Shown: one piece after another, positions 21,226 through 40,508 of the stretch | How the letters are laid out: the number at the start of each line of letters is the position of its first letter | How positions within the stretch are numbered: position 1 is the stretch's first letter | Source of the DNA: Bradyrhizobium sp. | Lineage (GTDB): Bacteria > Pseudomonadota > Alphaproteobacteria > Rhizobiales > Xanthobacteraceae | Assembly: GCF_019244115.1 (NCBI RefSeq) | Contig: NZ_JAFATE010000581.1 | Location: forward strand, 1-40,508 | Direction of reading: 5' to 3' | Length of the DNA stretch: 40,508 nt | Program-made: the position numbers and the translations under genes | The notes under the pieces: generated by a model | Databases searched by the model: none | Seen by the model: the letters and a program-made list of their open reading frames with translations, nothing else | Told to the model about the DNA's origin: nothing

Positions 21226-23103
21226 ATGAGCGTCCGTCAGGATCGTCCGCGAGAAGCGTTCTCGGTCGGGCCCGAGAGATCGCTTGATAACACACCGGAC
21301 CATGATCCCGTCGGCGACGGACTACGTCAAGCCGCGCGCAGGATGGTGGGCATCGGCGTTTTCAGCGGCGTCATCAACATCATGATGCTGTCCGGCTCGG
21401 TCTACATGATGCAGGTCTACGACCGCGTCATTCCGAGCCGCAACCTCGCGACCCTGTTCGGCCTGACGCTAATGGTGCTGCTGGCCTATCTGATTCAGGG
21501 CTATTTCGATGCGCTGCGTGCACGCATGCTCTGTCGCGTCGCCACAATCTTCGACGCCGGACTTCAACATTCGATCCACAACGCGCTCGCCACATTGCCG
21601 CTGCGCGGCGCGAAACCGATGCTGATGCAGCAGCCGCTGCGCGATCTGGACCAGCTGCGCGGCTTCATGTCGAGCATGGGACCGACTGCGTTCCTCGACA
21701 TGCCCTGGATACCGATCTTCCTGATCGGACTGTTCCTGTTCCATCCATTGATCGGCCTCACCGCACTCGCCGGCATGATCGCAATTGTGGCGGTGACCTT
21801 GGCGATCGAGCGCTTGTCACGCGGTTCGGTGAAGACCGCGACCGAGACCATGGCAATGCGTCAGGTGATTGCGGACGCCACACAGCGCAACGCCGAAGTG
21901 CTCCGCGCGCTCGGCATGATGGATCGGTTCTCCCAGCGTTGGCAGCAGGTCAATGAGCGCTATCTGCGCGAAAACCTGCGCGCCACCGATCTGACCTCCA
22001 ATCTCGGATCGGGCGCAAAGGTGCTGCGCTTCGTGCTGCAATCGGGAATGCTTGGGATGGGCGCCTATCTCGTCGTCTCGGAACAGGCGTCGGGCGGCGT
22101 GATGATGGCCTCATCTATCCTGATGGGCCGCGCGCTCGCACCCGTCGAGGTCGCGCTCTCGAGCTGGAAACAGCTTGTCGCCGCCCGTCAGGGAATCGCG
22201 CGCCTGCGCGATATCTGCAGGGCCACCGCCAAGCCGCCGGCACCGCCGATCGCGCTGCCGCGTCCCTATCGCGAGCTCTCGGTGCAAGAGCTCTCGGTCG
22301 TTGCGCCGGGGACCAACCGCCCGATCGTGTCCAACATCTCGTTCGCGCTCAAGGCCGGCACGGGGCTCGCACTGCTCGGCGCCAGTGCCTCGGGCAAGAC
22401 GTCGCTCTCGAAAGCCCTGGTGGGTATCTGGCCGGCGCAGCATGGCGTCGTGCGGCTCGATGGCGCCGCGCTCGACCAGTGGCCGAACCAGGAACTCGGA
22501 CGCCATATCGGCTATTTGCCGCAGGATGTCGCCCTGTTCGATGGCACGGTGGCCGAGAACATTGCACGCTTCGACCAGGACGCGACCTCCGACTCCATTC
22601 TGAAGGCCGCGCGCATCGCCGGCGTCCATGACCTCATTCTGCGTCTGCCCGAGGGCTATTCGACGCGCATCGGCCAGGGCGGCATGTCGCTCTCCGCGGG
22701 CCAGCGACAGCGGGTTGGCCTTGCGCGCGCGATCTTCGGCGATCCGTTCCTCGTCGTGCTCGACGAGCCCAATGCCAACCTCGATGCCGACGGCGAGAAT
22801 GCACTCAGTCAGGCGATCGCGATGATGCGCAAGAATCAGAGCATCGTCGTCGTCATCTCGCACCGGCCGAGCGCGCTCGCGGCGCTGAACATGGCAATGG
22901 TGCTCTATGACGGCAAGGCGATCGCATTCGGCACGACGCAGGAGGTGTTTGCGCGTGTTGCCGGCCAGAAACTGCAGGCCCCGCCTGCGCAACAGGCCGT
23001 CGCTGGACCTAATCCGAACAACAACGGCAATAACAACAACAGCAACAGGCCCCCGAACAACAATAGGCCGCCACGCCGCGCTGCGCTCGCAGAGAAGGTT
23101 TAA
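21226..23103 (+). CDS. Type I secretion ABC transporter (PrtD-type permease/ATPase)
   Basis: A 625-residue inner-membrane exporter. The transmembrane half (about 35-330) opens with GVFSGVINIMMLSGSVYMMQVYDRVIPSR cut by the family's VYDRV motif, as in PrtD/AprD. The ATPase half has Walker A GASASGKTS (385-393), signature LSAGQRQR (489-496) and Walker B LVVLDEP with Asp513-Glu514. It powers secretion of proteins with uncleaved C-terminal signals, together with a membrane fusion protein and TolC. No peptidase or C39 domain precedes it, so cargo is probably not processed by it. An unusual Asn/Pro tail (NPNNNGNNNNSNRPPNNN) ends the protein. GGGGAGG precedes the start. The fusion protein follows two bases after its stop. 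Confidence 0.93.
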   Translation: MSVRQDRPREAFSVGPERSLDNTPDHDPVGDGLRQAARRMVGIGVFSGVINIMMLSGSVYMMQVYDRVIPSRNLATLFGLTLMVLLAYLIQGYFDALRARMLCRVATIFDAGLQHSIHNALATLPLRGAKPMLMQQPLRDLDQLRGFMSSMGPTAFLDMPWIPIFLIGLFLFHPLIGLTALAGMIAIVAVTLAIERLSRGSVKTATETMAMRQVIADATQRNAEVLRALGMMDRFSQRWQQVNERYLRENLRATDLTSNLGSGAKVLRFVLQSGMLGMGAYLVVSEQASGGVMMASSILMGRALAPVEVALSSWKQLVAARQGIARLRDICRATAKPPAPPIALPRPYRELSVQELSVVAPGTNRPIVSNISFALKAGTGLALLGASASGKTSLSKALVGIWPAQHGVVRLDGAALDQWPNQELGRHIGYLPQDVALFDGTVAENIARFDQDATSDSILKAARIAGVHDLILRLPEGYSTRIGQGGMSLSAGQRQRVGLARAIFGDPFLVVLDEPNANLDADGENALSQAIAMMRKNQSIVVVISHRPSALAALNMAMVLYDGKAIAFGTTQEVFARVAGQKLQAPPAQQAVAGPNPNNNGNNNNSNRPPNNNRPPRRAALAEKV

Positions 23104-23105
23104 CC

Positions 23106-25028
23106 ATGGCACGGAAGAACGACAGGCGGTCAGCAAACCGGATCGAGCCGAGTTGGAGCCCCGATGCGCGCGCCGAAAGCTATGGTCCGCAAGGCAACGC
23201 GCTGATTCTGGAGCTGCAGCGGCTGCGCCAGGCCTTCGACAATGAAGGCCAGGATCCGCGATCGGGCTCGCGGCGATCCGCGCGCGACGGCGGTGGCCGG
23301 AACCGGCGTCCTCCATCGCGTAAATCGCGGCGCAAGAAAAAGGGCACGATGGAACGCGCCATCGACATGTGCCTGCGTCCGTTCGGCCTTCGGACGGCGC
23401 TGCCGGACGACACCTTCGAGGACATCGACATGTTGCGGAATCCGCCGGCGGCCCTGCCCCGTCGGCGCAGCCCATCGATCGTCTCCGGCGAGGCCGTCCC
23501 CCCCGATGTGGCAAGGCCAAGGCAGTTCCTGCCTGCACCGACCAATTTGCAGCAGGCGCCTGGCGTCAATCAGGCGCGTCCGAAGCTCCCCGTCCGCCTC
23601 GAAGCCGAAACACCTGTGGGCCGCGCCATCATCAAGGGTTCGTCGGCCCTCTCAACGGGCGTCACGTTCCTGCTCAATCCCGGCGCGAGCGAAGAGGATC
23701 TGGTTGCCGACGACACATTGTCGCAGCGGACCGGCCGCGGCTATGAGCGCGAATTGCGCACGGGCTTGCGGTTTCTCATTGTCGCGGTCGTGCTCGGCGG
23801 CGGCTGGATGACGTTGGTGCCGCTCGCCGGCGCAGTCGTCGTGCCGGGCAACCTGGTCGTGCAATCCAGCGTCAAGGCGATCCAGCATCCGACCGGTGGC
23901 GTGATCGCCGAGATCAAGGTCGACAATGGCAAGCACGTATCCGCCGGCGATCTTCTAGTGCGACTCGATCCCACGCAGACCCAGGCTTCCTTGCAGGCGA
24001 CCAGCAAGCAGCTCGATGAGCAGCGCGCAAAGATTGCCCGCCTGGTTGCCGAGCGGGACGGCCTGGAGCAACCGGCATTCCCGCCCGAACTGACGTCACG
24101 GATGAACGAGGACAGTGTTCGTGCCGTGATCGCGTCGGAAAATTCGCTGTTCAAGGCCCGCCAGAGCACGACGAAAAGCCAGAAGGACCTGCTGCAAGGC
24201 AGAATCGCTCAGTACACCGACGAAATCAACGGGATGCAGTCCCAGTCGGATTCCAAGACCAAGCAGATCGACCTCATCAACAGCGAACTGACCGGCGTTC
24301 AGGAGCTCTACGACAAGCGCCTGGTGCCGTTGACCAGGCTGACCTCGCTGCAGCGCGAGGCCGCACGGATCGACGGCGAGCGCGGACAGATGACCTCGAG
24401 CATCGCCGAGACCAAGTCGAAGATCGGCGAGGCACAGCTGCAGATCGTCAAGACCGACCAGGACTTTCGCGCCGAGGTCGTGAAGGACCTCGGGGAGACT
24501 CAGGCCAAGGAAGGCGAGCTGACCGAAAAGCTGGTCGCCGCGCGCGATCAGCTGAACCGGATCGAGATGCGCGCGCCGACCGCGGGCGTGATCCATCAGC
24601 TTCAGGTGCATACCATCGGCGGCGTCGTCAAAGCGGGCGAGACCATCATGGAAATCGTGCCGGACTCCGATGAATTGCAGGTCGAGGCGCACGTGCAGCC
24701 AAAGGACATCGACCACGTGCACATGGGCCAGGATGCGTTCGTGCGCTTTTCGGCCTTCAACCAGCGGACGACGCCGCAGCTGACCGGCCAGGTCTCGTTC
24801 GTCTCCGCGGACACGACTGTCGATCAGCACAACCCCAATGGCCAGGCTTCGGCGTTCTATACGGTACGCGTCGTCATGTCGGAGGAAGAGCGGCGCCGGC
24901 TCGGCGACGTCCAATTGATCCCGGGCATGCAGGCCGAGGTTTTCATGCAGACCGGCAAGCGCACCATGATGAGCTTCCTGATGAAGCCGATCATGGAGCA
25001 GCTCAAGCGCGCCTTCGTCGAGGAGTAA
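23106..25028 (+). CDS. Type I secretion membrane fusion protein (HlyD/PrtE type) with long N-terminal extension
   Basis: A 640-residue HlyD-family adaptor. Residues 1-210 are an extra cytoplasmic part: basic and Arg/Lys-rich up to about 80 (SRKSRRKKKG), then a short helical segment (AIDMCLRPFGLRTALPDD) and a Pro-rich stretch. The ordinary fusion protein starts at about 212: membrane helix (about 219-240), lipoyl half-motif HPTGGVIAEIKVDNGKHVSAG, a coiled-coil hairpin (about 290-480), second lipoyl half (RIEMRAPTAGVIHQLQVHT) and a beta-barrel end (DVQLIPGMQAEVFMQTGKR). Relatives such as PrtE have about 430 residues, so the extension accounts for the excess. It is co-transcribed with the ABC gene and should link it to a TolC not present here. 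Confidence 0.92.
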   Translation: MARKNDRRSANRIEPSWSPDARAESYGPQGNALILELQRLRQAFDNEGQDPRSGSRRSARDGGGRNRRPPSRKSRRKKKGTMERAIDMCLRPFGLRTALPDDTFEDIDMLRNPPAALPRRRSPSIVSGEAVPPDVARPRQFLPAPTNLQQAPGVNQARPKLPVRLEAETPVGRAIIKGSSALSTGVTFLLNPGASEEDLVADDTLSQRTGRGYERELRTGLRFLIVAVVLGGGWMTLVPLAGAVVVPGNLVVQSSVKAIQHPTGGVIAEIKVDNGKHVSAGDLLVRLDPTQTQASLQATSKQLDEQRAKIARLVAERDGLEQPAFPPELTSRMNEDSVRAVIASENSLFKARQSTTKSQKDLLQGRIAQYTDEINGMQSQSDSKTKQIDLINSELTGVQELYDKRLVPLTRLTSLQREAARIDGERGQMTSSIAETKSKIGEAQLQIVKTDQDFRAEVVKDLGETQAKEGELTEKLVAARDQLNRIEMRAPTAGVIHQLQVHTIGGVVKAGETIMEIVPDSDELQVEAHVQPKDIDHVHMGQDAFVRFSAFNQRTTPQLTGQVSFVSADTTVDQHNPNGQASAFYTVRVVMSEEERRRLGDVQLIPGMQAEVFMQTGKRTMMSFLMKPIMEQLKRAFVEE

Positions 25029-25048
25029 GCGGCGCGATCACGGGCCGC

Positions 25049-25069
25049 CTTGCGCATTGTTCGCGCAAG
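25049..25069. terminator. Hairpin between convergent secretion and sulfate-activation genes
   Basis: CTTGCGC (25049-25055) and GCGCAAG (25063-25069) form a perfect seven-pair stem with a seven-base loop. It lies between the stop of the fusion protein gene and the stop of convergent cysNC, where a bidirectional terminator is expected. There is no strong T-run, so efficiency is uncertain. Confidence 0.5.
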
Positions 25070-25090
25070 CCGCCACAAGCCTGGGGCGCG

Positions 25091-26971
25091 TTAGAGATTG
25101 CCGCGCTCGACCAGCGCCCTGATGACGACATCGGCAAGCTCATCAGGAGATGCGCCGATCGTCTGCAGATGCAGCTCTGGCGCTTCAGGCCTCTCGTATG
25201 GCGCATCGATGCCTGTAAAGTTTTTGATCTTGCCGGCCTTCGCTTTCGAATAGAGCCCTTTCGGGTCGCGCTGCACGCATTCCTCGATCGGCGTATCGAC
25301 GAAGACCTCGATGAACTCGCCCTCTCCGACCAGGCCGCGGACCATCTCCCGCTCCGCCCGGTAGGGCGAGATGAACGAGCAGATCACGATCAGGCCGGCA
25401 TCGACCATCAGCTTTGCGACTTCACCGGCACGCCTGATGTTTTCGACCCGATCGGCCTCGGTGAAGCCGAGGTCGCGGCTCAGGCCGTGCCGCAAATTGT
25501 CGCCATCCAGCAGCATGGTGTGATGCGCCATCGCAAACAGCTTCTGATCAAGGAGATTGGCGATGGTCGACTTGCCGGCGCCCGATAGTCCGGTAAACCA
25601 GACCATGCAGGGCTTCTGGTTCTTCAGTCCGGCGCGGTCCTTCCTGCCTATCGAGAGCGGCTGCCAGGCGATGTTGGCGGCTCGCCGCAAGGCAAATGCG
25701 ATCATTCCCGCGCCGACCGTACGGTTGCTGTAACGGTCGATCACGATGAACGCTCCCGTCCGCCGGTTCGCCTCGTAGGCATCGAAGCTCACCGGCACTG
25801 CGGTCGCGAGATTGCAGAAGCCGATCTCGTTAAGCGCGAGACCATGCGTCGCCAGGTGCTCCCGCGTATTGACGTCGATCTTGTACTTGATGGTCGTGAC
25901 GCTTGCCGGAACGCCCGACCGCGTTCCGATCCGCAGGAGGTAGGAGCGACCCGGCAGTAGCGCGTCCTGGTCCATCCAGATCAGATGGGCAGCAAACTGG
26001 TCGGCGACATCAGGCCGTTCGGTCGGACGGGCCAGCATGTCGCCGCGGCCTACATCGATGTCGTCGGCCAGCGTGATCGTCACGGCATCGCCGGCGACCG
26101 CCCGCACCAGGTCACCGTCAGATGTCACGATCCGTGCAACGCGCGCAAGCTGCCCCGAAGCTGCGACCACGATGTCGTCTCCGGGCGCGATGCTGCCGGA
26201 CGCAACGGTGCCGGCATAGCCGCGAAACTCGCTGTCCGGACGGTTGACCCACTGCACGGGAAAGCGGAACGGGCGGCTTGCCGTCTCCGATTGCACATCG
26301 ATGCGCTCGAGATAGTCGAGCAGGCACGGACCGTCGTACCATGGCGTGTTGGCGGAGCGCGCAATGACGTTGTCGCCGTGCCGCGCCGACAGCGGAATCG
26401 GCATGACCGAGACGAAGCCGAGAGCAGCGGAAAAGGCACGGTAATCCGCGATGATCCGCTCGAACGCGTCCTTGCCGTAGTCGACCAGATCGATCTTGTT
26501 CACCGCGAGAACGACATGTCGTATGCCGAGCAGCGCGCAGATGAAGGAGTGCCGCCTGGTCTGGACCAGCACGCCCTTGCGCGCATCGACCAGGATGATC
26601 GCGGCTTGCGCGTTCGAGGCGCCGGTTGCCATGTTGCGCGTATATTGCTCATGGCCGGGCGTATCCGCGACCATGAACGAGCGCCGCGGCGTGGTGAAGA
26701 AGCGGTAAGCAACATCGATCGTGATGCCCTGTTCGCGCTCGGCTTCGAGCCCATCGACGAGCAAGGCAAAGTCCAGCTCATCGCCCACGGTGCCGTGCCG
26801 CACGCTGTCGGCTGCGAGCGCCTGAAGCTGGTCGTCCATGATCAACCGGCTGTCATGCAGCAACCGCCCGATCAGGGTCGACTTGCCATCGTCGACCGAC
26901 CCGCAGGTTATCACGCGCAGCAGGTCCTTTGGCTCGCTTCGGCCCGCGCCGCTCCAGCTTCCGGCCTCCAT
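25091..26971 (-). CDS. cysN: Bifunctional sulfate adenylyltransferase GTPase subunit / APS kinase (CysN-CysC fusion)
   Basis: A 626-residue fusion that, with CysD, turns sulfate and ATP into APS and then PAPS, the sulfate donor for sulfotransferases. The CysN part is an EF-Tu-like GTPase: GSVDDGKST (24-32), DTPGHEQY, and NKIDLVD. The CysC part starts at about 450 with Walker [10 protein letters not shown] (461-469), [16 protein letters not shown] and the adenosine-binding [10 protein letters not shown]. The same fusion is called NodQ when tied to Nod-factor sulfation and RaxQ in Xanthomonas. Start ATG 26971 overlaps the cysD stop (TGATG), so the two are coupled. Its place between a secretion operon and a sulfotransferase gene suggests a dedicated PAPS supply. 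Confidence 0.95.
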
Positions 26972-27903
26972 CAAAAATAGCCTTCCCGCTTCTTCTTCTC
27001 CATCGACGCGGCCTCGTCGCCATCGATCAGGCGACCCTGTCGCTCCGATGCCCGCGAGCTGCGCATTTCCGCGACCAACTCTTCGATCGTGGTCGCCGCG
27101 GACTCGATCGCCCCGCTCAACGGATAGCATCCTAGGGTGCGAAAGCGGATCATCCGCATCTGCGGAGCCTCATCGGCCTCGAGCGGCAGCCGGTCGTCAT
27201 CGACCATGATGAAGGTGCCGCCCCGACGAACCACCGGACGCATCTTCGCAAAATAGAGCGGCACGACCGGGATCTTCTCCAGCATGATGTAGTCCCAGAT
27301 GTCGATCTCGGTCCAGTTCGACAGCGCGAAGACGCGCATCGTCTCGCCGCGCCTAATCCGCGTATTGTACAGGTTCCACAATTCCGGCCGCTGATTGCGC
27401 GGATCCCAGGCATGAGCCGCCGAGCGGAATGAAAAGATCCGCTCCTTGGCACGGCTTTTTTCCTCGTCGCGGCGTGCGCCGCCGAAGGCGGCGTCGAAGC
27501 CGTGTGCGTCGAGCGCCTGTTTCAGGGCTTCCGTTTTCATCACCTGGGTGTGCAGCGCCGAGCCGGACGCGACCGGATTGATGCCGCGGGCCAGGCCTTC
27601 CTGGTTGACATGCACGATCAGCTCCACGCCAAGGCGCCTCACGGTTTCGTCGCGAAATGCGATCATGTCGCGGAACTTCCAGGTGGTGTCGACGTGCAGA
27701 AGCGGAAACGGCGGTCTTGCCGGATAGAATGCCTTCAGCGCGAGGTGCAGCATCACGCTGGAGTCCTTGCCGACCGAATAGAGCATGACGGGCGAGCGGA
27801 ATTCGGCGACCACTTCGCGCATGATCTCGATCGACTCGGCCTCGAGGCGCCGCAGATGTCGAGGCAGCACCCGCGTACTTTCTCCGATCAAAGCCACTTG
27901 CAT
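26971..27903 (-). CDS. cysD: Sulfate adenylyltransferase subunit 2
   Basis: A 310-residue PP-loop ATP sulfurylase subunit. The PP-loop is seen as SVGKDS (43-48), with [29 protein letters not shown] and the C-terminal [21 protein letters not shown] segment cut across the family's usual end. Length matches CysD/NodP (about 300). ATG 27903 is preceded by GGACCAGGAC; the open frame extends 38 residues upstream to 28017 without CysD similarity. It forms an operon with cysNC. No cysG, cysH, cysI or sulfate transporter gene adjoins it, so it is more likely devoted to sulfation than to cysteine synthesis, which agrees with the neighbouring sulfotransferase. Confidence 0.95.
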
Positions 27904-28004
27904 CGATGTCCTGGTCCCCTTCCCGACAGAAGCGACATCTCCTTCGGCATCACGAGGTCGTCGCCGCCATGTCCGGTTTGCGGCCGTAACATGGAAAAAT
28001 TGGA

Positions 28005-28475
28005 CGCGGTAATTCAACGCCGATCAAAGCGCCGATGCCGCAATTCCGGTTTCAGATTTGCCGGTCAATCATGGAGAGAAGGTGGCCTTCTTTCGGCAAC
28101 CGTGTTGATAGAGAGGAAGTTCTGAGGGCCGGAACTGCCGTTGCCAATGAGCAGAAGTCGCGATCTTGCGGGCTGATTTCGCGGGTTTCTCCGCGCGAAA
28201 GGTCCCTGACGAGAGGTCGAAGGCGACACGCTCCGTCAATCGTTTCGGATGGTTACTGGAGCGCAACAGCCTCAATCTGCCCGAACATCAACATATTTGT
28301 GGACATCGCAGCACCTCTTTTGGCCCAATTATCAGGAATAATTCTCATCTGCTTGAATGGCGCATCTCAGAATCCCCATGCCGGTACGCGCGTCGGGGGG
28401 CGTCTTGTTCTAATCTTCATCGCGATCCCGTGGAGTGCGCCGGCCGGAGACGCGAGGGAATTGGGGAGATCATCA
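28005..28475 (+). promoter_or_regulatory. Upstream module of secreted-protein gene A (first of three copies)
   Basis: Two blocks here recur upstream of all three related genes. Block 1 (28005-28097) begins CGCGGTAATTCAACGC and ends GGTGGCCTTCTTTCGGC. Block 2 (28263-28326) contains CTCAATCTGCCCGAACATCA followed by ACATATTTGTGGAC and ends CTTTTGGCC. Farther right, ATGGCGCATCTCAGAATC has a counterpart before gene C. A TTTCGCG/CGCGAAA hairpin lies at 28177-28200. The module ends in the shared ribosome site TTGGGGAGA, about nine bases before the ATG. Conservation outside coding sequence suggests a promoter with operators or a structured leader; the regulator is unknown. Confidence 0.65.
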
Positions 28476-30206: not shown

Positions 30207-30250
30207 CCGCCTGAGCAGGGCACAGTCGATGCAGTGAACGCAACATCTTC

Positions 30251-30278
30251 CCAGCGCGGAACTCTTGTTCTGCGCTGG
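30251..30278 (+). terminator. Strong hairpin after gene A
   Basis: CCAGCGCGGAAC (30251-30262) pairs with GTTCTGCGCTGG (30267-30278) through twelve pairs, one of them a G-T wobble, with a TCTT loop, 45 bases after the stop of gene A. The following bases TTCGGCTTTGG are only mildly T-rich. It most likely ends the gene A transcript or shields its 3' end. The rest of 30207-30506 shows no gene and should hold the promoter of the sulfotransferase gene. Confidence 0.6.
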
Positions 30279-30506
30279 TTCGGCTTTGGGGGCGATACTC
30301 ATGTTGGGGCATCTTTCGAATCCGCCCGTTCGGATTCGCTGGCACATTTTCGAATGGTCAACGTCGCTTCGGCGCCGGCCCGGCATTGCGTGGGCGCGAC
30401 CCCGCGGGGCGCCGCGATGATCGGTAGAAGTACTCCAAAAAGAGCTTCGAGCCTCCGTTTCGCTTCAATCTGAACCAAATATTCTTGAACACGCAGCATT
30501 TCGGTC

Positions 30507-33500
30507 ATGAACGAACCAGCCATCGCGATCCACCCTCGAACCGCATCGATCGTCCCCAGCGCCGGTGCGGACGCCCTCAAAGCGGCGGAACAGGCCTATC
30601 GTGGCCTGCTTGCCGATGAGCCAAAGCATCTTCGCGCGCTTTGCGGACTGGCCGCGGTGCGCAGCCAGCTCGGTGCTGAGGCCGAGGCCCGCGAACTGCT
30701 GACGCAGGCCGTCGGTGTCGCGCGTCCTTCCGCCGAGGACCAGATTGCGCTCGGCACTGCGTTTCGCAGGATCAAGGATCTGGACAACGCGCGCCGCCAT
30801 TTCGAATCGGCCGTTGCGCTCGATCAGGACCATGCCGAGCCCCGCATTCAGCTCGCCAACATCCATCTCCTTGCCGGCCGCATCGAAGACGCCATCGCGC
30901 AATATCAGGCGGCGCTCGATATCGACCTGAACAATGCCGACGTCCATCAGGCCCTGGGGCTCGCGCTGCAGCGTCTGCGGCAATTCCAGTCGGCCATTCC
31001 GCACCACGAAAAAGCGCTCGCGATCAAGCCGCGATTCGCGCTCGCCCATGTCAGCCTCGGCGATGCCCATCGTCATCTCGAGCGACACGATGAGGCGATC
31101 GCACAATACCAGCGCGCGCTCGCCATCAATCCGCAACTGACCGACGCCTACGTCAATCTCGGCGGAACCCTGCACCTGATCGGCCGTCGCGAGGAGGCGA
31201 TTGCCATCTATCAGGCCGCATTGCTCGCCAATCCCAACCTTGCCGACGCGCATTACAATCTGGGCAATCTCTACTCCGAGCTCGACAATCTGCAGGCCGC
31301 GATCTTCCACTACGGACGCGCGGTCGAGCTGCGCCCGACCTCGGCCGAATCCCATAACAATCTCGGTAACGCCCTGCAAAAGCGCGGGCGCCACCAGGAA
31401 GCGATCGCGCATTATCGCACCGCCATCCGCCTGAAGCCGAACGATGCGTCGACCCTGCGCAACATGGGCGACGCCTGGCGTTCCCTGCACCGGTTCGACA
31501 AGGCAATCGCGAGCTACCGCGCGGCGCTGACGAGCGATCCCACCGACATCACGGCGATGAACCATCTCGGCGGTGCGCTGATGATCACCGGCCAGATCGA
31601 GGATGCCGCCCGCGTCTATGAGGCCGCCCTCAAGATCCAGCCGCAGAATGTCGGGGTGCATTTCAATTACGCGACCGCCAAGCGGTTCGTCGCCGGCGAT
31701 CCGCGGCTGCCATTGCTGGAGGACCTCGCGGCGCGCGAGGCCCAGCTTCCCGACGAAGGACGGATCGCGCTGCATTTCACGCTCGGCAAGGCTTATGCCG
31801 ACCTCAGGGATGGCGAGCGCTCGTTCCAGCATCTGGACATCGCCAATCGCATCGAACGGCAACACCTGACCTATGACGAGCTCTCGACGCTGCGGCTCTT
31901 CGATCGCATCCGCGATGCGTTCACCAAGGACATCCTGCGCACGCGCTCCGGCGCGGGCCATCGCTCGGAGGCGCCGATTTTCGTCGTCGGAATGCCGCGC
32001 TCCGGCACCAGCCTGGTCGAGCAGATTCTGGCCAGCCATCCGCGCGTCTACGGCGCCGGCGAGGTCAATCACTTCTCGACGGTGACGTCGTCCTTCGCCG
32101 CTCGCTCGCGGACCCAATATCCGGAAATGTTCTTCAAGCTGTCCGACGAGGAACTGCGGGAGCTCGGCAAGACCTATCTCGCGCAGATCTCCGCACCGGC
32201 AGCGTCGGCGGCCCGCATCGTCGACAAGATGCCTGCGAACTTTCTCTCCCTCGGCCTCATTCATCTCGCTTTGCCGGAAGCCCGGATCATTCACGTCAAG
32301 CGCGACCCGATCGACACCTGCCTGTCCTGCTTCTCGCTGTTGTTTGCCGAGGGTCAGCCCTTTGCCTACGACCTTGCGGAAGTCGGACACTATTACAAGG
32401 CCTATGAGGCCCTCATGGCGCACTGGCGTTCGGTGCTGCCGCCGGGGACCATGCTGGAGGTGCAATACGAGGACCTCGTCGGCGAAATGGAGGGGCATGC
32501 CCGCCGGCTCGTTCGCTATTGCGGCCTCGACTGGGACGATCGTTGTTTGTCGTTCCACCAAACCAAGCGGCCGGTCCAGACCGCCAGCCTGGTCCAGGTC
32601 CGCGAACCGGTTCATTCCAAATCGGTCGGCCGGTGGCGTCTGTATGGAGCGCGGCTCAAGCCGCTATTGGATGCGCTTGATATCGACGCGCCGGCGCCCG
32701 AGCCCGTCAAAAGCAGCTCTCCCGTTCCAGCGGGCGCAGAGAATTTCAAGCGCGCCAAGAACCGCGCCGAGAACTGGGTCGAGCGCGCCTACCAGCTCGG
32801 CACCACGCTTCAGCAACGCGGCAAGCTCAAACAGGCCGAGCGTCTGCTGCTGGCCGTGCTGGCTGTGCGGCCGGATCATTTCGGTTCGCTGCTGGCGCTC
32901 GGTTCGCTGTACGCAAACAGCAACCGCCTGGACGAGGCCAAGAGCTATTTCCAGCAGATGATCGCGGCGCATCCGAACTTCGCCGAGGCGCATGGCAGCC
33001 TGGGGGCTTTGCGCGGGACCCGTGGCGAGCTGGATGCCGCGGTCGTGTGCTACGAGAAGGCGCTGTCGCTCGCGCCCTATCATCCCGGCATCCACTACGG
33101 ATATTCGTCCGTGCTGCAGAGCATCGGCAAGAGCGCCAAGGCGATCGAGCATCTCCGGTTTGCCCTGGCGGTCAGGCCCGATCACCTGGAGTCGCACTTC
33201 GCGCTCGGCAATCTGCTCTATGCCGCTGACCGGCTCGACGAGGCGCTCCGCTGCTATCAGCAGGTGCTGCGCTTCAATCCGCGGCACGCCGAGACCCACA
33301 ACAATATCGCCAACACCTATTTGAAGCTCGGCCAGCGAGACCGCGCGATCTCCCACTACAAGACCGCGCAGGACGCCAATCCCTCCTATGCCGATGCCTT
33401 CGGCAACCTCGGCAATGCCTATCTCGAGCTCAACCGCCTCGAGGAGTCCATCGAGCAGAACCGGCTCGCCATCGCGCGTAATCCCACGCGCTTCGGATCG

Positions 33501-34649
33501 TTCAACAATCTCGGCGTCGCCTACCAGGCGCTCGGCCAATTCGAGGAAGCGAGCTGGGCGTTCGAGCGGGCGCTCGAACTGTCCCCGGATGAAGCGTCGG
33601 TCCATCTCAATCTCGCGAACATGCAAAAGTTCGCGGCTGATGATCGTCGCCTCCCCGGCCTGCGCAGGCTGATCGAGCGCATCGATACACTCGACAACGA
33701 GCAGAAGCTCTCGGCGCATTTCGCGATGGGCAAGGCGTTGTCCGACCTGAAGCAATATGACGAGGCTTTCGCGCATCTAAAACAGGCCAACGCCCTGAAG
33801 CGGCGGACCTTCGACTACGACGAAGGCCAGCGGCTTGCAATGTTCAGGAACATCGAGGCGAAGTACACGCCGGAGCTCTTCGCGGCGAAATCCGGCAGTG
33901 GGGACACCTCATGGTCTCCGATCTTCATCGTCGGCATGCCGCGGTCGGGCACGACGTTGCTGGAGCAGGTGCTGGCCAGTCATTCCCGGGTGTTCGGCGC
34001 CGGCGAACTCGAAACATTCAAGGAAGCCATCAACGAGTGCGTCGAGAGCCAGCGCATCCTGCCGGCTTATCCGCTGCTGGTCGATTTCCTGGCGCCCGAG
34101 CACATCCTGCGGATCGGCCAGACCTACACCACGCAGGTGCGCGCGCTGGCGCCGGATGCGCCGCATGTCGTCGACAAGATGCCGCTGAACTTCATGTTCG
34201 TCGGCCTGATCCATCTCGCGCTTCCCAACGCCAGAATCATTCATATCCGTCGCGATCCGCTCGACACCTGCGTCTCGTGCTACTCGTTGCTGTTTACGGG
34301 CAGTCAGCCCTTTGCTTACGACCTGGCGGAACTCGGCCATTATTATCGCGGCTACGAACAGGTGATGGCGCATTGGCACAAGGTGCTGCCGCCTGGCGTG
34401 CTGATGGACGTGCAATACGAGGACCTCGTTGCCGACCTCGAAGGCGTGTCGCGGGGCGCGCTGGCGCATTGCGGGCTGGAATGGGAGGACGCGTGCCGCG
34501 ATTTCCACGACACCAAGCGGAGCGTGCGTACGGCGAGCACCATGCAGGTCCGCGAGCCGCTTTATAGTCGCTCGATCGGCAGCTGGCGCCGGTACGAGAA
34601 GCACCTCGGTCCGCTGTTCGAGGCGCTCGGTAGGACGCCGAAGGCCTGA
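30507..34649 (+). CDS. Tandem TPR-sulfotransferase protein (two complete units)
   Basis: A 1380-residue protein made of two similar halves. Half 1: about eleven TPR repeats (about 20-450), then a PAPS-dependent sulfotransferase domain with 5'-phosphosulfate loop FVVGMPRSGTSLVEQ (492-506), VDKMPANF, and 3'-phosphate site RIIHVKRDPIDTCLS (593-607). Half 2: more TPRs (about 765-1090), then FIVGMPRSGTTLLEQ (1140-1154), VDKMPLNF and RIIHIRRDPLDTCVS (1243-1257). Both domains keep the expected motifs, so both may be active. The Sulfotransfer_3 family includes tyrosylprotein sulfotransferases; TPRs often hold the protein substrate. No signal peptide is seen, so it should act in the cytoplasm before secretion. 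The Shine-Dalgarno is poor. Substrates are inferred to be proteins A, B and C. Confidence 0.88.
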   Translation: MNEPAIAIHPRTASIVPSAGADALKAAEQAYRGLLADEPKHLRALCGLAAVRSQLGAEAEARELLTQAVGVARPSAEDQIALGTAFRRIKDLDNARRHFESAVALDQDHAEPRIQLANIHLLAGRIEDAIAQYQAALDIDLNNADVHQALGLALQRLRQFQSAIPHHEKALAIKPRFALAHVSLGDAHRHLERHDEAIAQYQRALAINPQLTDAYVNLGGTLHLIGRREEAIAIYQAALLANPNLADAHYNLGNLYSELDNLQAAIFHYGRAVELRPTSAESHNNLGNALQKRGRHQEAIAHYRTAIRLKPNDASTLRNMGDAWRSLHRFDKAIASYRAALTSDPTDITAMNHLGGALMITGQIEDAARVYEAALKIQPQNVGVHFNYATAKRFVAGDPRLPLLEDLAAREAQLPDEGRIALHFTLGKAYADLRDGERSFQHLDIANRIERQHLTYDELSTLRLFDRIRDAFTKDILRTRSGAGHRSEAPIFVVGMPRSGTSLVEQILASHPRVYGAGEVNHFSTVTSSFAARSRTQYPEMFFKLSDEELRELGKTYLAQISAPAASAARIVDKMPANFLSLGLIHLALPEARIIHVKRDPIDTCLSCFSLLFAEGQPFAYDLAEVGHYYKAYEALMAHWRSVLPPGTMLEVQYEDLVGEMEGHARRLVRYCGLDWDDRCLSFHQTKRPVQTASLVQVREPVHSKSVGRWRLYGARLKPLLDALDIDAPAPEPVKSSSPVPAGAENFKRAKNRAENWVERAYQLGTTLQQRGKLKQAERLLLAVLAVRPDHFGSLLALGSLYANSNRLDEAKSYFQQMIAAHPNFAEAHGSLGALRGTRGELDAAVVCYEKALSLAPYHPGIHYGYSSVLQSIGKSAKAIEHLRFALAVRPDHLESHFALGNLLYAADRLDEALRCYQQVLRFNPRHAETHNNIANTYLKLGQRDRAISHYKTAQDANPSYADAFGNLGNAYLELNRLEESIEQNRLAIARNPTRFGSFNNLGVAYQALGQFEEASWAFERALELSPDEASVHLNLANMQKFAADDRRLPGLRRLIERIDTLDNEQKLSAHFAMGKALSDLKQYDEAFAHLKQANALKRRTFDYDEGQRLAMFRNIEAKYTPELFAAKSGSGDTSWSPIFIVGMPRSGTTLLEQVLASHSRVFGAGELETFKEAINECVESQRILPAYPLLVDFLAPEHILRIGQTYTTQVRALAPDAPHVVDKMPLNFMFVGLIHLALPNARIIHIRRDPLDTCVSCYSLLFTGSQPFAYDLAELGHYYRGYEQVMAHWHKVLPPGVLMDVQYEDLVADLEGVSRGALAHCGLEWEDACRDFHDTKRSVRTASTMQVREPLYSRSIGSWRRYEKHLGPLFEALGRTPKA

Positions 34650-34791
34650 GCGCCTCACGGGCGACCGGCTCATAGCCGCACCCTCTGCGGCCTGCGCGCA
34701 ATTCGAAACAGTTGGTGCCGCGGCCGGACGATCCGCCAATACTGACGCCCTATTCGCTCTCGTCTGCTGAGGATGCGGCAGGCCCCGCTCT

Positions 34792-35283
34792 CGCGGCGAT
34801 TCAACGCAGGCCGCAGCGCCGGACGGCGGGTCTGCCGCAATTCAGCTTTGAGCGATGCAATCGATCGTGGAGAGATCGTGGCCTTCTTTCGGCAGCAACA
34901 TCCCACTGCAGATTCGCGCCGGGATCGCGCGTGCCGCGACCCTGTCTCGACTGAGCGGGAACCGGAATTTCGGCTTTAGCTCCAATTGCTTTCTTGATCG
35001 GCGCAAGTGCGGGCGCGCGTTGCAGCCAGTTGCGGTTGCGCGGCTTTGAATTCGTCACCTGAATGCAACGCCTCAATTTGCCCGAACATCAACATAGTTG
35101 CGGACTGCTGAGCTCTTCTTTTGGCCGGGTTGGTGCGACCATATAGCACATGCGACAATCGGCGCGGCGCGACGAGCGAGCACAAGCAGTGCGCTCGCGC
35201 CGTGACGACGAGGGGTGCGGTTCCCGGCTGGTCCAATGCCGGGCGTCGTCGGCGAGATGAACCTTTCTTGGGGAGATGACTGA
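34792..35283 (+). promoter_or_regulatory. Upstream module of gene B (second copy)
   Basis: Block 1 (34792-34893) begins CGCGGCGATTCAACGCAGGC and ends GTGGCCTTCTTTCGGC. Block 2 (35065-35126) reads GCAACGCCTCAATTTGCCCG, then AACATCAACATAGTTGCGGA and ends CTTTTGGCC. These match the blocks before genes A and C. The stretch between the blocks and after block 2 differs more than it does between A and C. The ribosome site TTGGGGAGA precedes ATG 35284 with the same spacing class. The rest of 34650-35283 has no gene. Confidence 0.65.
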
Positions 35284-36770
35284 ATGGCGAATACCTTCAC
35301 TCCGACCGCGCTGGCGAACGGCACGTCGAATCTGCTGGTGCGCGCAGACGCGATCAACCAGACGACGGATCTGTTGCAGGCCGGCGTCGTCTTCAATGAC
35401 GCCGTGCGCCTCTCGCTCGGTCTGTTCTCGACGCCGCAGAACAGCGGCAACTCCAACCCGTTCCTGACCAGCTACACGACCGACGTCCATGCGGTGCAGA
35501 ACGACATCGCCGCGATGCTCGCCAACCCCGGCAACGTCACGATCAATGGCAACGCCTTCAAGCTGAATGCGACCGACACGGCGGTGCTGACCAACATCCA
35601 GGGCCAGCTCGGCCAGCTGCTCGCAGCCGCCCCGCAGACCACGAATGCGGCGACGGTGGCGCAGGCCGACCAGACCCTGCACGCGGTGCAGTCCGAGATC
35701 CTGCAGGAGATCCAGGGCGACGCACATCTGTCCGCGGCGCTCAACAACGTCACCTTCATGGCCAACACGGGCGCGAACGATGTCGCGTTCCAGAGTCTGC
35801 CGGCCGGCAACGACAGTGCGGCTAATCTCGCGGCTGCCACCAACGGGACCAGCCTGAAGGTCATCGGTGAAGTATTCAACGCCGCGACCGTCGCTGCAAC
35901 AGGCGGTATCAACGCCGGCAATGCCGCCGAGATCGCCGCCGACATGACCGCGATTCAGACGGGGCTGACCAAGCTTTTGGGCAATGCGACCGCGCTCGCC
36001 GCGATCGAGAAGGGCGAGACGGCAAACGCCGCGGCATTGACCACGATCCATCTGCAGACGGTGCTCAACCAGATCAACCAGCAGATGAAGTACGATGCCA
36101 CCCCGACTACGCCGACGTCACTGCGCGGCACCGCGGACAACCTGCTCGACATCATCGATATCGTGCAGAACGACGCCGCGTTGAACAAGGCGGCCGGCGG
36201 CAACGGCAACGCGGGCCATGCCGGCGGCTTCGCCGAGATGCCGGGCGGCCTGACCGGCACCGTCACCAAATTCCAGGACAACCAGGCGCAGACCAATTTC
36301 TGGGCCGCCTTCCTGGCCGAAGCAAACACTGTCACCGCGCAGCTGACAAAGGTCGTCAACGGCTCGGCGGCGGCGAGCCAGGCCCTGATCACGCAGATCC
36401 AGAACTATGACAATTTCGGCATCAATTTCGACGCGGCGCAGGGCGCGGTATTCAAGGGCCGGTTCGACAACGAGCTAAACAACGGCACCCTGCAAGCCGA
36501 CACCGCGAACGCCGTCAAGGGTCTCATGGGCATCCTGAACCACGACACCGGTGCAGCGCTCGCGGCTGACAAGGCGATGATCACCGCGGCCGGCATGGGC
36601 TTCCAGGCCGACGCCAAGGACGTCTCCGGCAACAACATCGCCATCGGTGGCGCCACGTATGTCGGCACCGCGACGACTGTCAGCACCGCGACCTCGGTCC
36701 ATGGGCTCGCACAAGGCACGATTCCCGTGACCGCGAATCCGAATATCGCGAACGGCACGGGCGGTACCGC
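35284..36770 (+). repeat. Domain repeat, copy B1
   Basis: First of two in-frame copies of a roughly 1.48-kb segment in gene B; closely similar at DNA level to gene A 28476-29960 and to gene C from 39128. Landmarks are the opening ACNTTCACNCCGACCGCGCT, the stretch encoding FQDNQAQTNFWAAFLAEAN, and the end encoding TANPNIANGTGG. Similarity to gene A is higher than to B2 in the first 300 bases by eye. Confidence 0.8.
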
Positions 36771-38541
36771 CACAACGGGCACCGGCGGTGCAGGTGGTGG
36801 TGCGGGCGGCGGCGCAGTCGCAATCAACTTCAACCCGACTGCGCTGGCGCACGGCACGTCGAACCTGCTCGTGCGCGCATCGGCCATCCAGCACTCCACC
36901 GACCTGGTCACGGCCGGCGTCGTGTTCAACGATGCTGCGCGCATTTCGCTCGGTCTGTTCTCGACGCCGGCAAACAGCGGCAACTCGACCCCGTTCCTCA
37001 CGAGCTTCACCGGCGACATCACTGCGGTGCAGACGGATATCGCCGCGATGCTCGCCAATCCCGGCGCCGTGACGCTCGGAGGTAAGGCCTTCACGTTGAA
37101 CGCGACGGACACGGCGGTGCTGACCAACATCGAGGGTCAGCTCGCGACGATCCTCAACGCGGCACCGCAGACCGCAAATGCGGCGACGCTGGCGGCTGCC
37201 GATCAGACCATCCACAACGTAGAGACCCAGATCCTGCAGGAGATCCAGGGCGACGCGCATCTTGCCGGCGCCCTCAAGGGCGTCACCTTCATGGCCAACA
37301 CCGGCGCCACCGATGTTGCTTTCCAGAGCCTGCCTGCTGGCAACGACAGCGCGGCAAACCTCGCCGCGGCAACGGCGGGCACCAGCCTGAAGACCATCGG
37401 TGAGGTGTTCAATGCGGCCACCGTTGCGGCGGCCGGCGGTATCAATGCCAACAACCTCGGCGAGATCACCAACGACTTCACCGCGATCCAGCAGGGGCTG
37501 ACCAAGATCCTGGGCAATGCGACCGCGCTCGCCGCGATCGAAAAGGGTGAGACGGCCAATGCGGCTGCATTGACGACCATCCACCTGCAGACGGTGCTGA
37601 ACCAGATCAACCTGCAGCTCAACAAGTATGACGCGGCCGAGGTGAACGCCAATCCCACCGCACTGCGCGGCACCGCCGACAACCTGCTCGACATCATCGA
37701 CATCGTGCAGAACGACGCCAACTTGAACATGGCGGCGGGCGGCAACGGCACGGCCGGACATGTCGGCGGCTTCGCCGAGATGCCGGGCGGCTTGACGGGC
37801 ACCGTCACCAAGTTCCAGGACAACCAGGCACAGACCAACTTCTGGGCGGCGTTCCTCTCGGAAGCCAACACCCTCACCGCGCAGCTGACAAAGGTCGTCA
37901 ACGGGTCGGCGGCGGCGAACCAAGCCCTGATCACGCAGATCCAGAACTATCAGCACTTCGGTGCCGCCTTCGACGCGGCGCAGGGTGCGGTGTTCCAGGG
38001 CCGGTTCGACAACGAACTCAACAACGGCACGCTCGAGGCCGACAGCGCGGCTGCGATCAAGGGCCTCATGGGCATCCTGAACCACGATACCGGTGCAGCC
38101 CTCGCCGCCGACAAGGCGATGATCACTGCGGCCGGCATGGGCTTCCAGGCCGACGCCAAGGACGTCTCCGGCAACAACATCCCAGTCAACGGCGGGACCT
38201 ATGTCGGCACCGCCACGACAGTCAGCACGGCGACGTCGATCAAGGGTACCGCACAGGGCACCATCCCGGTCACCGCCAACCCGAACATCGCAAATGGCAC
38301 GGGCGGTGCCGCGGCTGCGGGCACCTCGCAGGCTGGCATGCACGGTCACGACGCGGACGACCAGCCGGCCGCAGCCGCGGCCGGCGCCAAGACGAGCGGT
38401 GCTCCGGCCGCTGCGGCCGCCAATACCCACACGAGCCAACCTGCCGCCACGTCGCACGCGACGGGTGCCACCCACACGATGATCACGATGCACGATCTGA
38501 TGCATGCCGAGGCGGTGGCCCATCAGATGCACTGGGCCTGA
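35284..38541 (+). CDS. Repeat-domain protein B (two domain copies), putative type I secreted cargo
   Basis: A 1085-residue paralogue of protein A carrying two full copies of the domain: residues 1-495 (opening ANTFTPTALANGTSNLLVRA) and about 512-1010 (opening VAINFNPTALAHGTSNLLVR), joined by a Gly-rich linker (TGTGGAGGGAGGGA). A less ordered Ala/His/Thr-rich region follows, then the tail LMHAEAVAHQMHWA, almost identical to that of protein A. The internal copy lacks that tail, so the tail belongs to the end of the protein and not to the domain. Candidate sulfation Tyr270 (MKYDATP) and Tyr782 (NKYDAAE) sit at equal places in the two copies. There is no Sec signal and no RTX repeat. Codon differences from gene A are mainly silent, showing selection on the protein. 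Confidence 0.82.
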   Translation: MANTFTPTALANGTSNLLVRADAINQTTDLLQAGVVFNDAVRLSLGLFSTPQNSGNSNPFLTSYTTDVHAVQNDIAAMLANPGNVTINGNAFKLNATDTAVLTNIQGQLGQLLAAAPQTTNAATVAQADQTLHAVQSEILQEIQGDAHLSAALNNVTFMANTGANDVAFQSLPAGNDSAANLAAATNGTSLKVIGEVFNAATVAATGGINAGNAAEIAADMTAIQTGLTKLLGNATALAAIEKGETANAAALTTIHLQTVLNQINQQMKYDATPTTPTSLRGTADNLLDIIDIVQNDAALNKAAGGNGNAGHAGGFAEMPGGLTGTVTKFQDNQAQTNFWAAFLAEANTVTAQLTKVVNGSAAASQALITQIQNYDNFGINFDAAQGAVFKGRFDNELNNGTLQADTANAVKGLMGILNHDTGAALAADKAMITAAGMGFQADAKDVSGNNIAIGGATYVGTATTVSTATSVHGLAQGTIPVTANPNIANGTGGTATTGTGGAGGGAGGGAVAINFNPTALAHGTSNLLVRASAIQHSTDLVTAGVVFNDAARISLGLFSTPANSGNSTPFLTSFTGDITAVQTDIAAMLANPGAVTLGGKAFTLNATDTAVLTNIEGQLATILNAAPQTANAATLAAADQTIHNVETQILQEIQGDAHLAGALKGVTFMANTGATDVAFQSLPAGNDSAANLAAATAGTSLKTIGEVFNAATVAAAGGINANNLGEITNDFTAIQQGLTKILGNATALAAIEKGETANAAALTTIHLQTVLNQINLQLNKYDAAEVNANPTALRGTADNLLDIIDIVQNDANLNMAAGGNGTAGHVGGFAEMPGGLTGTVTKFQDNQAQTNFWAAFLSEANTLTAQLTKVVNGSAAANQALITQIQNYQHFGAAFDAAQGAVFQGRFDNELNNGTLEADSAAAIKGLMGILNHDTGAALAADKAMITAAGMGFQADAKDVSGNNIPVNGGTYVGTATTVSTATSIKGTAQGTIPVTANPNIANGTGGAAAAGTSQAGMHGHDADDQPAAAAAGAKTSGAPAAAAANTHTSQPAATSHATGATHTMITMHDLMHAEAVAHQMHWA
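36829..38310 (+). repeat. Domain repeat, copy B2
   Basis: Second in-frame copy in gene B. It differs from B1 mostly at third codon positions and in a few blocks: its opening encodes NFNPTALAHG, an AIQHSTDLVTAG segment replaces AINQTTDLLQAG, and the first Tyr-containing segment SYTTD is replaced by SFTGD. From about 37440 onward it matches gene A again closely (NLGEITNDF, LNKYDAAEVNANP). The mosaic suggests past exchange between copies. Confidence 0.78.
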
Positions 38542-38584
38542 TCGCAAGATCGCGCCGCGCAAGCAACGTCGTGAAGTGAAATAC

Positions 38585-38613
38585 CCCAGTGCAGATTTTT
38601 TTTCTGCACTGGG
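38585..38613 (+). terminator. Perfect hairpin with a T7 loop after gene B
   Basis: CCCAGTGCAGA (38585-38595) and TCTGCACTGGG (38603-38613) form a perfect eleven-pair stem whose loop is seven T residues, 44 bases after the stop of gene B. There is no T-run after the stem, so it is not a textbook intrinsic terminator. Its position equals that of the hairpin after gene A, and it likely ends or protects the transcript. Confidence 0.6.
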
Positions 38614-38647
38614 CCCCACCTCAGGAAGGCTCCGCGACATGGAGACC

Positions 38648-39127
38648 CGCGGCGATTTAACGCAGGCAGCGCGCGCAAAGAACGGCGCGATCTGCCACAA
38701 TTCAGGTTCCGGATTCGCAGGTCAATCGTGGACAGACGGTGGCCTTCGTTCGGCGACAGCATGAACATGTGGCTTTCATGCACAGTGACATTTGCCGCGA
38801 CTGAATAGAAACTGACAATTCGAATTGGTTTGCGATTGTTTTTGGGATGCTCGCGAGATGCCGAGCATCGACCGGTTCCGGTGTGTCACCGAACCGCAAC
38901 AACCTTCCCTGCCTGAACCTCAACACATTTGCGAACGCGCCGACACTTTTTTCGGCCCTAAACGCGCGACTAATTCGCAACTGCTTTGAGTGGCGCGTAA
39001 CAACAAGTCCCGGATGCCGGCACAACGTCGGCCGAAGGGGGGCCCTTCAGTCCTAGAGTCTACACGTCCTTGCAAACCCGGAAAGGGCGCCGATCCGGGA
39101 AACGCGAGCACATTGGGGAGACGATTA
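38648..39127 (+). promoter_or_regulatory. Upstream module of gene C (third copy)
   Basis: Block 1 (38648-38754) begins CGCGGCGATTTAACGCAGGC and ends GTGGCCTTCGTTCGGC. Block 2 (38896-38958) contains GCAACAACCTTCCCTGCCTG, then AACCTCAACACATTTGCGAA and ends TTTCGGCCC. After block 2, AACTGCTTTGAGTGGCGCGT resembles the sequence before gene A. Two hairpins stand between the blocks: GATGCTCG/CGAGCATC (38846-38869) and CGGTTC..GGTG/CACC..GAACCG (38873-38896). TTGGGGAGA precedes ATG 39128. The rest of 38542-39127 holds no gene. Confidence 0.65.
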
Positions 39128-40508
39128 ATGGCGAACACCTTCACTCCGACCGCGCTGGCGAACGGCACGTCGAATCTGCTGGTCCGCGCATCCGCGATCA
39201 ACCAGACGACGGACCTGTTGCAGGCCGGCGTTGTGTTCAACGATGCGGCGCGGCTCTCGCTCGGCCTGTTCTCGACCCCGCAAAACAGCGGCAACTCGAT
39301 CCCCTTCCTCGGCGAGTACACGACCGACATCCATGCGGTGCAGAACGACATCGCCGCGATGCTCGCCAATCCCGGCACCGTGACGATCAACGGCAACGCC
39401 TTCACGCTGAATGCGACCGACACCGCGGTGCTGACCAATGTGCAGGCGCAGCTCGGGCAGCTGCTTGCCGCGGCCCCGCAAACCACGAATGCCGCAACGC
39501 TCGCGGCCGCCGACCAGACCATCCACAACGTGCAGGCGCAGATCCTGCAGGAAATCAACGGCGACGCCCACTTGTCTGCCGCGCTCAACAACGTCACTTT
39601 CATGGCCAACACCGGCGCGAACGACGTCGCGTTCCAGAGTCTGCCCGCCGGCAACGACAGCACGGCGAACCTGGCTGCGGCGACGGCGGGGACCAGCCTG
39701 AAGGCCATTGGTGAAGTGTTCAACGCCGGCGCTGATCTTGCGATGGGCGGCATCAGCAACAACAACCTCGCTCAGGTCACGGCCGACTTCACCGCAGTTC
39801 AACAGGGCCTAACGAAGCTTCTGGGCAATGCGACCGCGCTCGCCGCGATAGAAAAAGGCGAGACGGCCAACGCTGCGCAACTGACGACGATCCACCTGCA
39901 GACGATCCTGAACCAGATCAACACGCAGCTGAACAAGTATGATCCCGCGGAGGTGAACGCCAATCCGACCGCGCTGCGCGGCACTGCCGACAATGTGCTC
40001 GACATCATCGACATCGCGCAGAACGACGCCGCCATCAACATGGCCGCTGGCGGGACCGGCGCGGCCGGACATGTCGGCGGCTTCGCCGAAATGCCGGGCG
40101 GTCTGACCGGGTCGGTGCAGAAATTCCAGGACAACCAGGCGCAGACCAATTTCTGGGCGGCGTTCCTGGCCGAAGGCAACACCATCAATGCGACGCTGGC
40201 CAAGATCGCCAACGGATCGGGAACGGCGAGCGCGGGATTGGTCACGCAGATCCAGAACTACGAGGCGTTCGGTCGCACGTTCGATGCCGCACAGGGCGCG
40301 GTGTTTCAGGGCCGGTTCGACAACGAACTCAACGGCGGCACGCTGCAGGCTGACACGATGGCCGCAGTGAAAGGCCTTCAGGGCATTTTGAATGGCGATA
40401 CCGGCGCTGCGCTCGCCGCCGACAAGGCGATGATCACCGCGGCCGGTCAGGGCTTTGCCGCCGACGCGATGGACGTCTCCGGCAACAACATCGCGATCGG
40501 CGGCGCCA
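39128..40508 (+). CDS. Repeat-domain protein C, partial (runs off the window)
   Basis: The first 460 residues of a third paralogue; no stop occurs before the right edge. It starts with the family opening ANTFTPTALANGTSNLLVRA and keeps all landmarks: LPAGNDSTANLAA, the KYD motif with Tyr271 (NKYDPAEVNANP), FAEMPGGLTGSVQKFQDN, RFDNELNGGTLQAD and DVSGNNIAIGGA. It has diverged in the block FNAGADLAMGGISNNNLAQ. Whether it has one domain or several, and whether it ends in the shared HQMHWA tail, cannot be seen. The frame is open and conserved, so it is a real gene and not a remnant. Confidence 0.82.
   Translation, partial: MANTFTPTALANGTSNLLVRASAINQTTDLLQAGVVFNDAARLSLGLFSTPQNSGNSIPFLGEYTTDIHAVQNDIAAMLANPGTVTINGNAFTLNATDTAVLTNVQAQLGQLLAAAPQTTNAATLAAADQTIHNVQAQILQEINGDAHLSAALNNVTFMANTGANDVAFQSLPAGNDSTANLAAATAGTSLKAIGEVFNAGADLAMGGISNNNLAQVTADFTAVQQGLTKLLGNATALAAIEKGETANAAQLTTIHLQTILNQINTQLNKYDPAEVNANPTALRGTADNVLDIIDIAQNDAAINMAAGGTGAAGHVGGFAEMPGGLTGSVQKFQDNQAQTNFWAAFLAEGNTINATLAKIANGSGTASAGLVTQIQNYEAFGRTFDAAQGAVFQGRFDNELNGGTLQADTMAAVKGLQGILNGDTGAALAADKAMITAAGQGFAADAMDVSGNNIAIGGA

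Follow-up and report, generated by a model that had tools for sequence, protein, structure and literature searches.

The stretch of DNA analysed here (the window) is the entire contig C783, 40508 bases, of a Bradyrhizobium sp. genome that is 91.4% complete and lies in 915 contigs. It holds a conserved locus for type I secretion, to which a redox pair is attached, together with a new family of cargo proteins. A reductase and a membrane protein joining a cytochrome b561 domain to an ethylbenzene-dehydrogenase-type heme domain (b561-EB_dh), both on the minus strand, are followed by an ATP-binding cassette (ABC) transporter and its membrane fusion protein (MFP) on the plus strand, by cysNC and cysD on the minus strand, and then by cargo A, a double TPR-sulfotransferase, cargo B and cargo C, all on the plus strand. 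A first-pass annotation of this DNA had seen the ABC transporter and MFP, cysD/cysNC, the double sulfotransferase and three paralogous cargo genes together, which is borne out by the profiles and open reading frames (ORFs). It lacked the b561-EB_dh/reductase pair, just upstream of its range; the conserved unit starts at 17359, not 21226. The features are as follows.

17359..18423, minus strand: 2Fe-2S/FAD/NAD reductase, 354 aa (Pfam Fer2, FAD_binding_6, NAD_binding_1)
18423..20447, minus strand: b561-EB_dh protein, 674 aa (Pfam Ni_hydr_CYTB and EB_dh; hydropathy; near-invariant H14, H57, H141, H155)
21226..23103, plus strand: type I secretion ABC transporter, PrtD type (TIGR01842; Pfam ABC_membrane and ABC_tran only)
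23106..25028, plus strand: type I secretion MFP (TIGR01843 across residues 215-640)
25091..27130, minus strand: cysNC, sulfate adenylyltransferase large subunit fused to adenosine 5'-phosphosulfate (APS) kinase (NF004035)
26971..28017, minus strand: cysD, sulfate adenylyltransferase small subunit (NF009214, TIGR02039)
28476..30206, plus strand: cargo A, 576 aa from ATG (all-helical model, His-rich C-terminal tail)
29286..29288, plus strand: codon of Tyr272, candidate sulfation site (577-codon query numbering; 271 from ATG)
30186..30206, plus strand: cargo A tail, HQMHWA-stop (probable component of the export signal)
30507..34649, plus strand: double TPR-sulfotransferase, TPR-ST-TPR-ST (ST, sulfotransferase domain), 1380 aa (Pfam TPR, two Sulfotransfer_3 stretches; motifs for binding 3'-phosphoadenosine-5'-phosphosulfate, PAPS)
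35284..38541, plus strand: cargo B, 1085 aa, with the cargo core twice (ORF and repeat comparison)
38521..38541, plus strand: cargo B tail, HQMHWA-stop (probable component of the export signal)
39128..40508, plus strand: cargo C, from ATG 39128, incomplete at the contig end, which is the window end (ORF)

Both exporter components exceed the curated cut-offs of the PrtD-type profiles (ABC transporter, 677 bits against TIGR01842, cut-off 510; MFP, 398 bits against TIGR01843, cut-off 209). In this respect the island is like PrtD-type type I secretion, but it differs in that cargo A has no match in Pfam or NCBIfam and in that a redox pair and modifying enzymes are linked to the exporter. The products of cysNC and cysD score 997 bits against NF004035 (cut-off 715) and 530 bits against NF009214 (cut-off 413), respectively. 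Because these matches begin about 65 codons (cysNC) and about 50 codons (cysD) within the listed ORFs, the true starts of both genes probably lie further downstream.

In a survey of 265 genomes of the genus, cargo matches were found in 54 genomes, or 52 after two weak ones were set aside. Orthologs of b561-EB_dh (at least 62% over the matched stretch; partial in G045 and G200) were found in 64 genomes, including all 52 with a solid cargo match. When the 12 other genomes were fetched around b561-EB_dh, 11 were found to have a divergent cargo adjoining it, and in the twelfth (L130) the contig stops at this point; altogether, cargo is present in 63 of the 64 genomes. Among 85 loci compared, b561-EB_dh (50% or more) is present in 50, of which 45 also have the ABC transporter and cargo, a proportion that is biased in that most loci were fetched for their cargo match, so that the 11 of 12 is the fairer test. 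Four of the five exceptions (L041, L130, L131 and L202) lie at contig ends, and the fifth (L144) is an additional b561 gene that the window's genome carries on a contig of 5 kb. Two gene orders occur: one has MFP-ABC divergent from cargo-b561-reductase and no modifying enzyme, and the other has reductase-b561 divergent from ABC-MFP, followed by cargo. All five genes were also recognized outside the genus, at 36-61% identity, in the Hyphomicrobiales metagenome-assembled genomes (MAGs) L158 and L169, and at the level of the taxonomic family cargo was found in 34 of 391 genomes and four of 47 genera. A lone cargo, lacking both the ABC transporter and b561, is held by 25 of the 85 loci, many on short contigs. 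Among open-licence PMC papers, we found none that links a type I exporter to a transmembrane electron-transfer pair.

The b561-EB_dh protein consists of the b561 membrane domain, whose four His residues are near-invariant in 46 rows, a linker, an additional hydrophobic segment (301-319) and the heme domain (347-667; EB_dh match, 118 bits). Judged by hydropathy only, segment 301-319 would place the heme domain outside the inner membrane. The nearest solved relatives of the reductase in the PDB are oxygenase reductases (top 5ogx, E = 2e-27), and it is therefore regarded as oxygenase-type. With four heme His in the b561 domain and a heme domain predicted to lie outside, the protein is like CYBDOM proteins (b561 plus DOMON), in which, according to the excerpt of PMC10784552, a b561 membrane domain is joined to an outside heme-binding domain. 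The same excerpt cites ethylbenzene dehydrogenase among heme-binding DOMON structures and states that Arabidopsis CRR, a b561-plus-DOMON protein, promotes iron reduction. The window protein differs from those described there in being bacterial, in having EB_dh at the C-terminus, and in being likely fed by the 2Fe-2S/FAD/NAD reductase, not by ascorbate.

A block of 300 bases occurs in four copies at 77-90% identity among the cargo genes, well above chance, and the number of repeats varies among cargos. The cargo family profile found no match among PDB sequences, and the single Pfam match of cargo B, to DUF2884, reaches 23.5 bits, under the curated cut-off of 30.6. At least 742 homologs were scored in the protein search for cargo A and at least 955 for a distant family member. 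AlphaFold2, given 91 sequences, modelled the cargo as almost entirely helical (mean pLDDT 77.8, pTM 0.74), with pLDDT below 50 in residues 515-577 of cargo A, and the model gave no convincing match to PDB structures. The cargos are acidic (median pI 4.57), and no N-terminal signal peptide was seen on them by eye. Shortened cargos of about 354-391 codons, not caught by the cargo search, lie at the same spot beside b561-EB_dh in L127, L128, L131-L133 and L135-L138.

Of 74 cargo ORFs taken from the window, L037-L059 and L083-L122, seven are truncated by contig ends; in each of the 67 that have a stop, the final two residues are Trp followed by Gly, Ala or His. Eleven of 15 additional cargos (L114, L127-L129, L131-L138, L158, L162 and L169) have the same ending, two end in WE, and L158 and L162 end in WHHG and WHHA; Trp is thus among the final four residues in all 82 complete cargos. 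The His content of the last 60 residues (median 11.7%, versus 1.7% in the remainder) is greater in every one of the 67, and their last 20 residues contain at least three His. The coding pattern of the tail occurs four times in the window's genome, always at a cargo end, and a control pattern does not occur at all. This His-rich, Trp-ending tail is likely an export signal and/or a metal site, and, taken together with the b561-EB_dh/reductase pair, it suggests that the exported protein is a site of redox reactions or metal handling.

The double TPR-sulfotransferase, scored as present when its second ST domain matched at 71% or more, was found in only 14 of the 265 genomes (G000, the window's own, and G101, G116, G157, G158, G168, G169, G170, G177, G224, G249, G269, G278 and G289). 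These are exactly the genomes with a best cargo match of at least 67% (window-type), the next genome having 51%, and their cargos form one clade in the tree on a 100/100 branch. The clade includes Bradyrhizobium BTAi1, which is an island-bearing isolate with a closed genome, STM 3843, STM 3809, B. aeschynomenes 83002, SSBR45G, SRS-191, Tv2a-2 and one MAG. The other 49 of the 63 cargo genomes have no sulfotransferase of the window type. The first-pass annotation was right to tie the exporter to the cargo, and its tie between sulfotransferase and cargo holds within this clade. Under the refutation test that it proposed, the transporter half stands; sulfation, itself a prediction, is an add-on that this clade alone has to a secretion/redox module of older date. 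The island includes cysDNC in two genomes. These two are the window's genome and G224 (contigs C359 and C855, same order), in which cysNC/cysD stand between MFP and cargo. The search for cysD also covered seven further genomes of the clade; five of them gave one or two complete copies at other places or, in the case of G170, nothing better than a 46% match. The second full cysD of the window's genome is on contig C324. Beside a cysD fragment in this genome (L039, C419, 2386-7171), three ORFs resembling, by eye, Cas7, Cas8 and Cas5 of type I-C CRISPR lie between the contig middle and the fragment, which is followed by a cargo start.

The 5'-PAPS motif occurs twice in the window's enzyme, and also in the uncut orthologs listed, and the 3' PAPS pattern is found chiefly in the second ST domain. 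The best PDB relative of this second domain is the protein-tyrosine sulfotransferase 8w5z, at a weak score (E = 4.6e-6), and the alignment pairs Arg, Glu and Lys residues that we take to be catalytic in human TPST2. More distant TPR-sulfotransferases, at 34-53%, occur in additional genomes. In L194 (G262:C3, 1574-8716), a double TPR-sulfotransferase lies immediately behind an autotransporter (PF03797), and L200 (G100:C1, 6080-16999) has a tandem TPR-sulfotransferase pair, an APS-kinase-like gene, a C39-type exporter with MFP, and a cadherin-like-domain protein. Because its neighbours are exporters or an autotransporter, this type of sulfotransferase is suggested to serve exported surface proteins.

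Cargo A has Tyr at only four positions (65, 272, 379 and 463, in a query numbering that starts one codon before the ATG). Position 272 is Tyr in each of the 46 distinct repeats from the clade, also in those of the lone copies, and most neighbouring columns vary. In the nearest sulfotransferase-free cargos (45-55%) it is Phe in four of four distinct sequences, and likewise in five more at about 35%. Tyr379 is also Tyr in the 45-55% sulfotransferase-free group and therefore does not discriminate. Tyr272 is thus a candidate sulfation site.

In sister islands, an O-heptosyltransferase sits between MFP and cargo; it is outside the window, and hence was beyond the view of the first-pass annotation. 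The enzymes of L083 and L092 score 631 and 636 bits against TIGR04414 (cut-off 200), contain Pfam TibC_1st, and have the cysteine spacing CX2CX15CX11C of the four-cysteine iron finger of TibC. They are thus like the TibC/Aah autotransporter heptosyltransferases as described in the excerpt of PMC4358343, but differ in being placed in a type I secretion island. A heptosyltransferase match (E-value cut-off 1e-30) was found in 12 of the 14 clade genomes, all except G177 and G224, and in 10 of the 14 sulfotransferase loci it adjoins cargo and TPR-sulfotransferase. It also occurs, at 61-71%, in 25 genomes outside the sulfotransferase clade. The window's genome has two partial copies: the one on C61 follows another cargo and TPR-sulfotransferase, and the other is on C488.

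Taken together, these genes may act as one sulfating secretion/redox system, a reading that we hold tentatively, at a little under even confidence. The PrtD-type exporter would export the tailed cargos directly from the cytosol, the C-terminal tail serving as export signal and binding metal; cysDNC would supply PAPS as sulfate donor, and the double TPR-sulfotransferase is predicted to sulfate the cargo in the cytosol before export, most likely at Tyr272. The b561/heme-domain protein and the reductase would likely carry electrons from NADH through the inner membrane and deliver them to the exported protein or its metal. The older function of the module may have lain in redox reactions or metal handling on the cell surface, with sulfation, plus O-heptosylation in most of the clade, presumably added once on the branch to the window's clade.

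It is also conceivable, though rather unlikely, that the TPR-sulfotransferase sulfates not tyrosine but a glycan, which could be a surface polysaccharide or a heptose that the TibC-like enzyme has attached to the cargo. The heptosyltransferases of 12 clade genomes, with 10 loci in which they adjoin cargo and sulfotransferase, fit this, as do cargos that are poor in Tyr and rich in Thr (12% in cargo B). However, G177 and G224 have cargo and TPR-sulfotransferase with no heptosyltransferase match at that E-value (G224 being a 980-contig assembly), and the relation to 8w5z, weak as its score is, points to protein tyrosine. The locus may alternatively encode a surface coat or adhesin, with b561/reductase a merely co-inherited neighbour that has an unrelated respiratory or metal-reduction job. 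We consider this unlikely: variable repeat numbers, lone cargos without the redox pair, and a 43-45% b561-EB_dh paralog that occurs without cargo in 23 of the 265 genomes (with a 36-37% reductase alongside in four loci examined) speak for it, but cargo is retained in nearly all ortholog genomes, in two gene orders, and the five genes are together even in the distant Hyphomicrobiales MAGs.

The first-pass annotation had proposed that the same logic as in Xanthomonas Rax operates here, and a Rax-type system, in which a RaxA/RaxB pair exports a sulfated peptide signal, does share the functional set in outline. According to the excerpt of PMC6637879, in raxX-raxSTAB, too, the genes for a sulfotransferase and for the two type I exporter components adjoin that of the exported substrate, and PAPS is required; there, however, the substrate is a 60-residue precursor from which RaxB cuts off a double-glycine leader, RaxST is single-domain, and the PAPS genes are housekeeping. 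The island differs in its ABC transporter, on which Pfam found no C39 peptidase domain (the same scan detects C39 on the C324 ABC transporter), in having no small leader peptide among the visible substrates (576 and 1085 aa), in its double TPR-sulfotransferase, in the PAPS genes inside the island, in the redox pair, and in its large, apparently unrelated cargo. Because the exporter is of PrtD type and most cargo genomes have no window-type sulfotransferase, the Rax-type reading is contradicted, and we regard it as very improbable. A set closer to Rax by gene content alone exists in the same genome: L201 (G000:C324, 5480-12824) has consecutively an HlyB-type ABC transporter with a C39-like domain, near the contig end, an MFP, a 286-aa Sulfotransfer_3 protein, cysD and cysNC. 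In short, the locus is predicted to work partly like Rax and is not a member of it; the island looks like its own secretion system rather than a copy of Xanthomonas Rax.

Several observations weigh against a single sulfating secretion/redox system. Within the clade, 155 of the 474 columns of the core show no variation in any case, distant cargos have Tyr one column off in 40 of 42 rows, and pairwise alignment puts Tyr at 272 in the distant cargos L042, L044, L048 and L050. Moreover, Tyr272 and the sulfotransferase arose on the same branch (100/100), and therefore count as one evolutionary event. The PAPS genes adjoin the island in just two of 14 genomes, and the second copy in the window's genome is also by a type I exporter, so that either copy could be housekeeping. 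Six close lone cargos (L086, L088, L091, L099, L101 and L103), 75-77% to cargo A and grouping as a single clade in the tree, have no adjoining pump; they lie in sulfotransferase-clade genomes that also carry the island. In L162, another MAG from outside the genus, the pump, the cargo and the reductase are present, but b561 is missing among the matches listed, and the fetching bias of the locus comparison belongs here as well.

A more far-reaching possibility, which we consider doubtful, is an undescribed machine in which exported, metal-carrying, tailed helical proteins would be reduced or loaded with metal outside the inner membrane by a chain of NADH reductase, b561 and heme domain, and in the BTAi1 clade would also be tyrosine-sulfated and mostly O-heptosylated in the cytosol, to act at the plant surface. 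BTAi1 and other strains in this clade nodulate without Nod factors. To our knowledge, sulfated secreted proteins are hardly known in bacteria beyond RaxX, and this locus would represent a different sulfation architecture, with large proteins, a double TPR-sulfotransferase, one candidate residue and, in two genomes, an island that includes the PAPS genes. The link between the exporter and the transmembrane electron-transfer pair, which persists in 63 of the 64 genomes, suggests that the exported family has a function not yet recognised.

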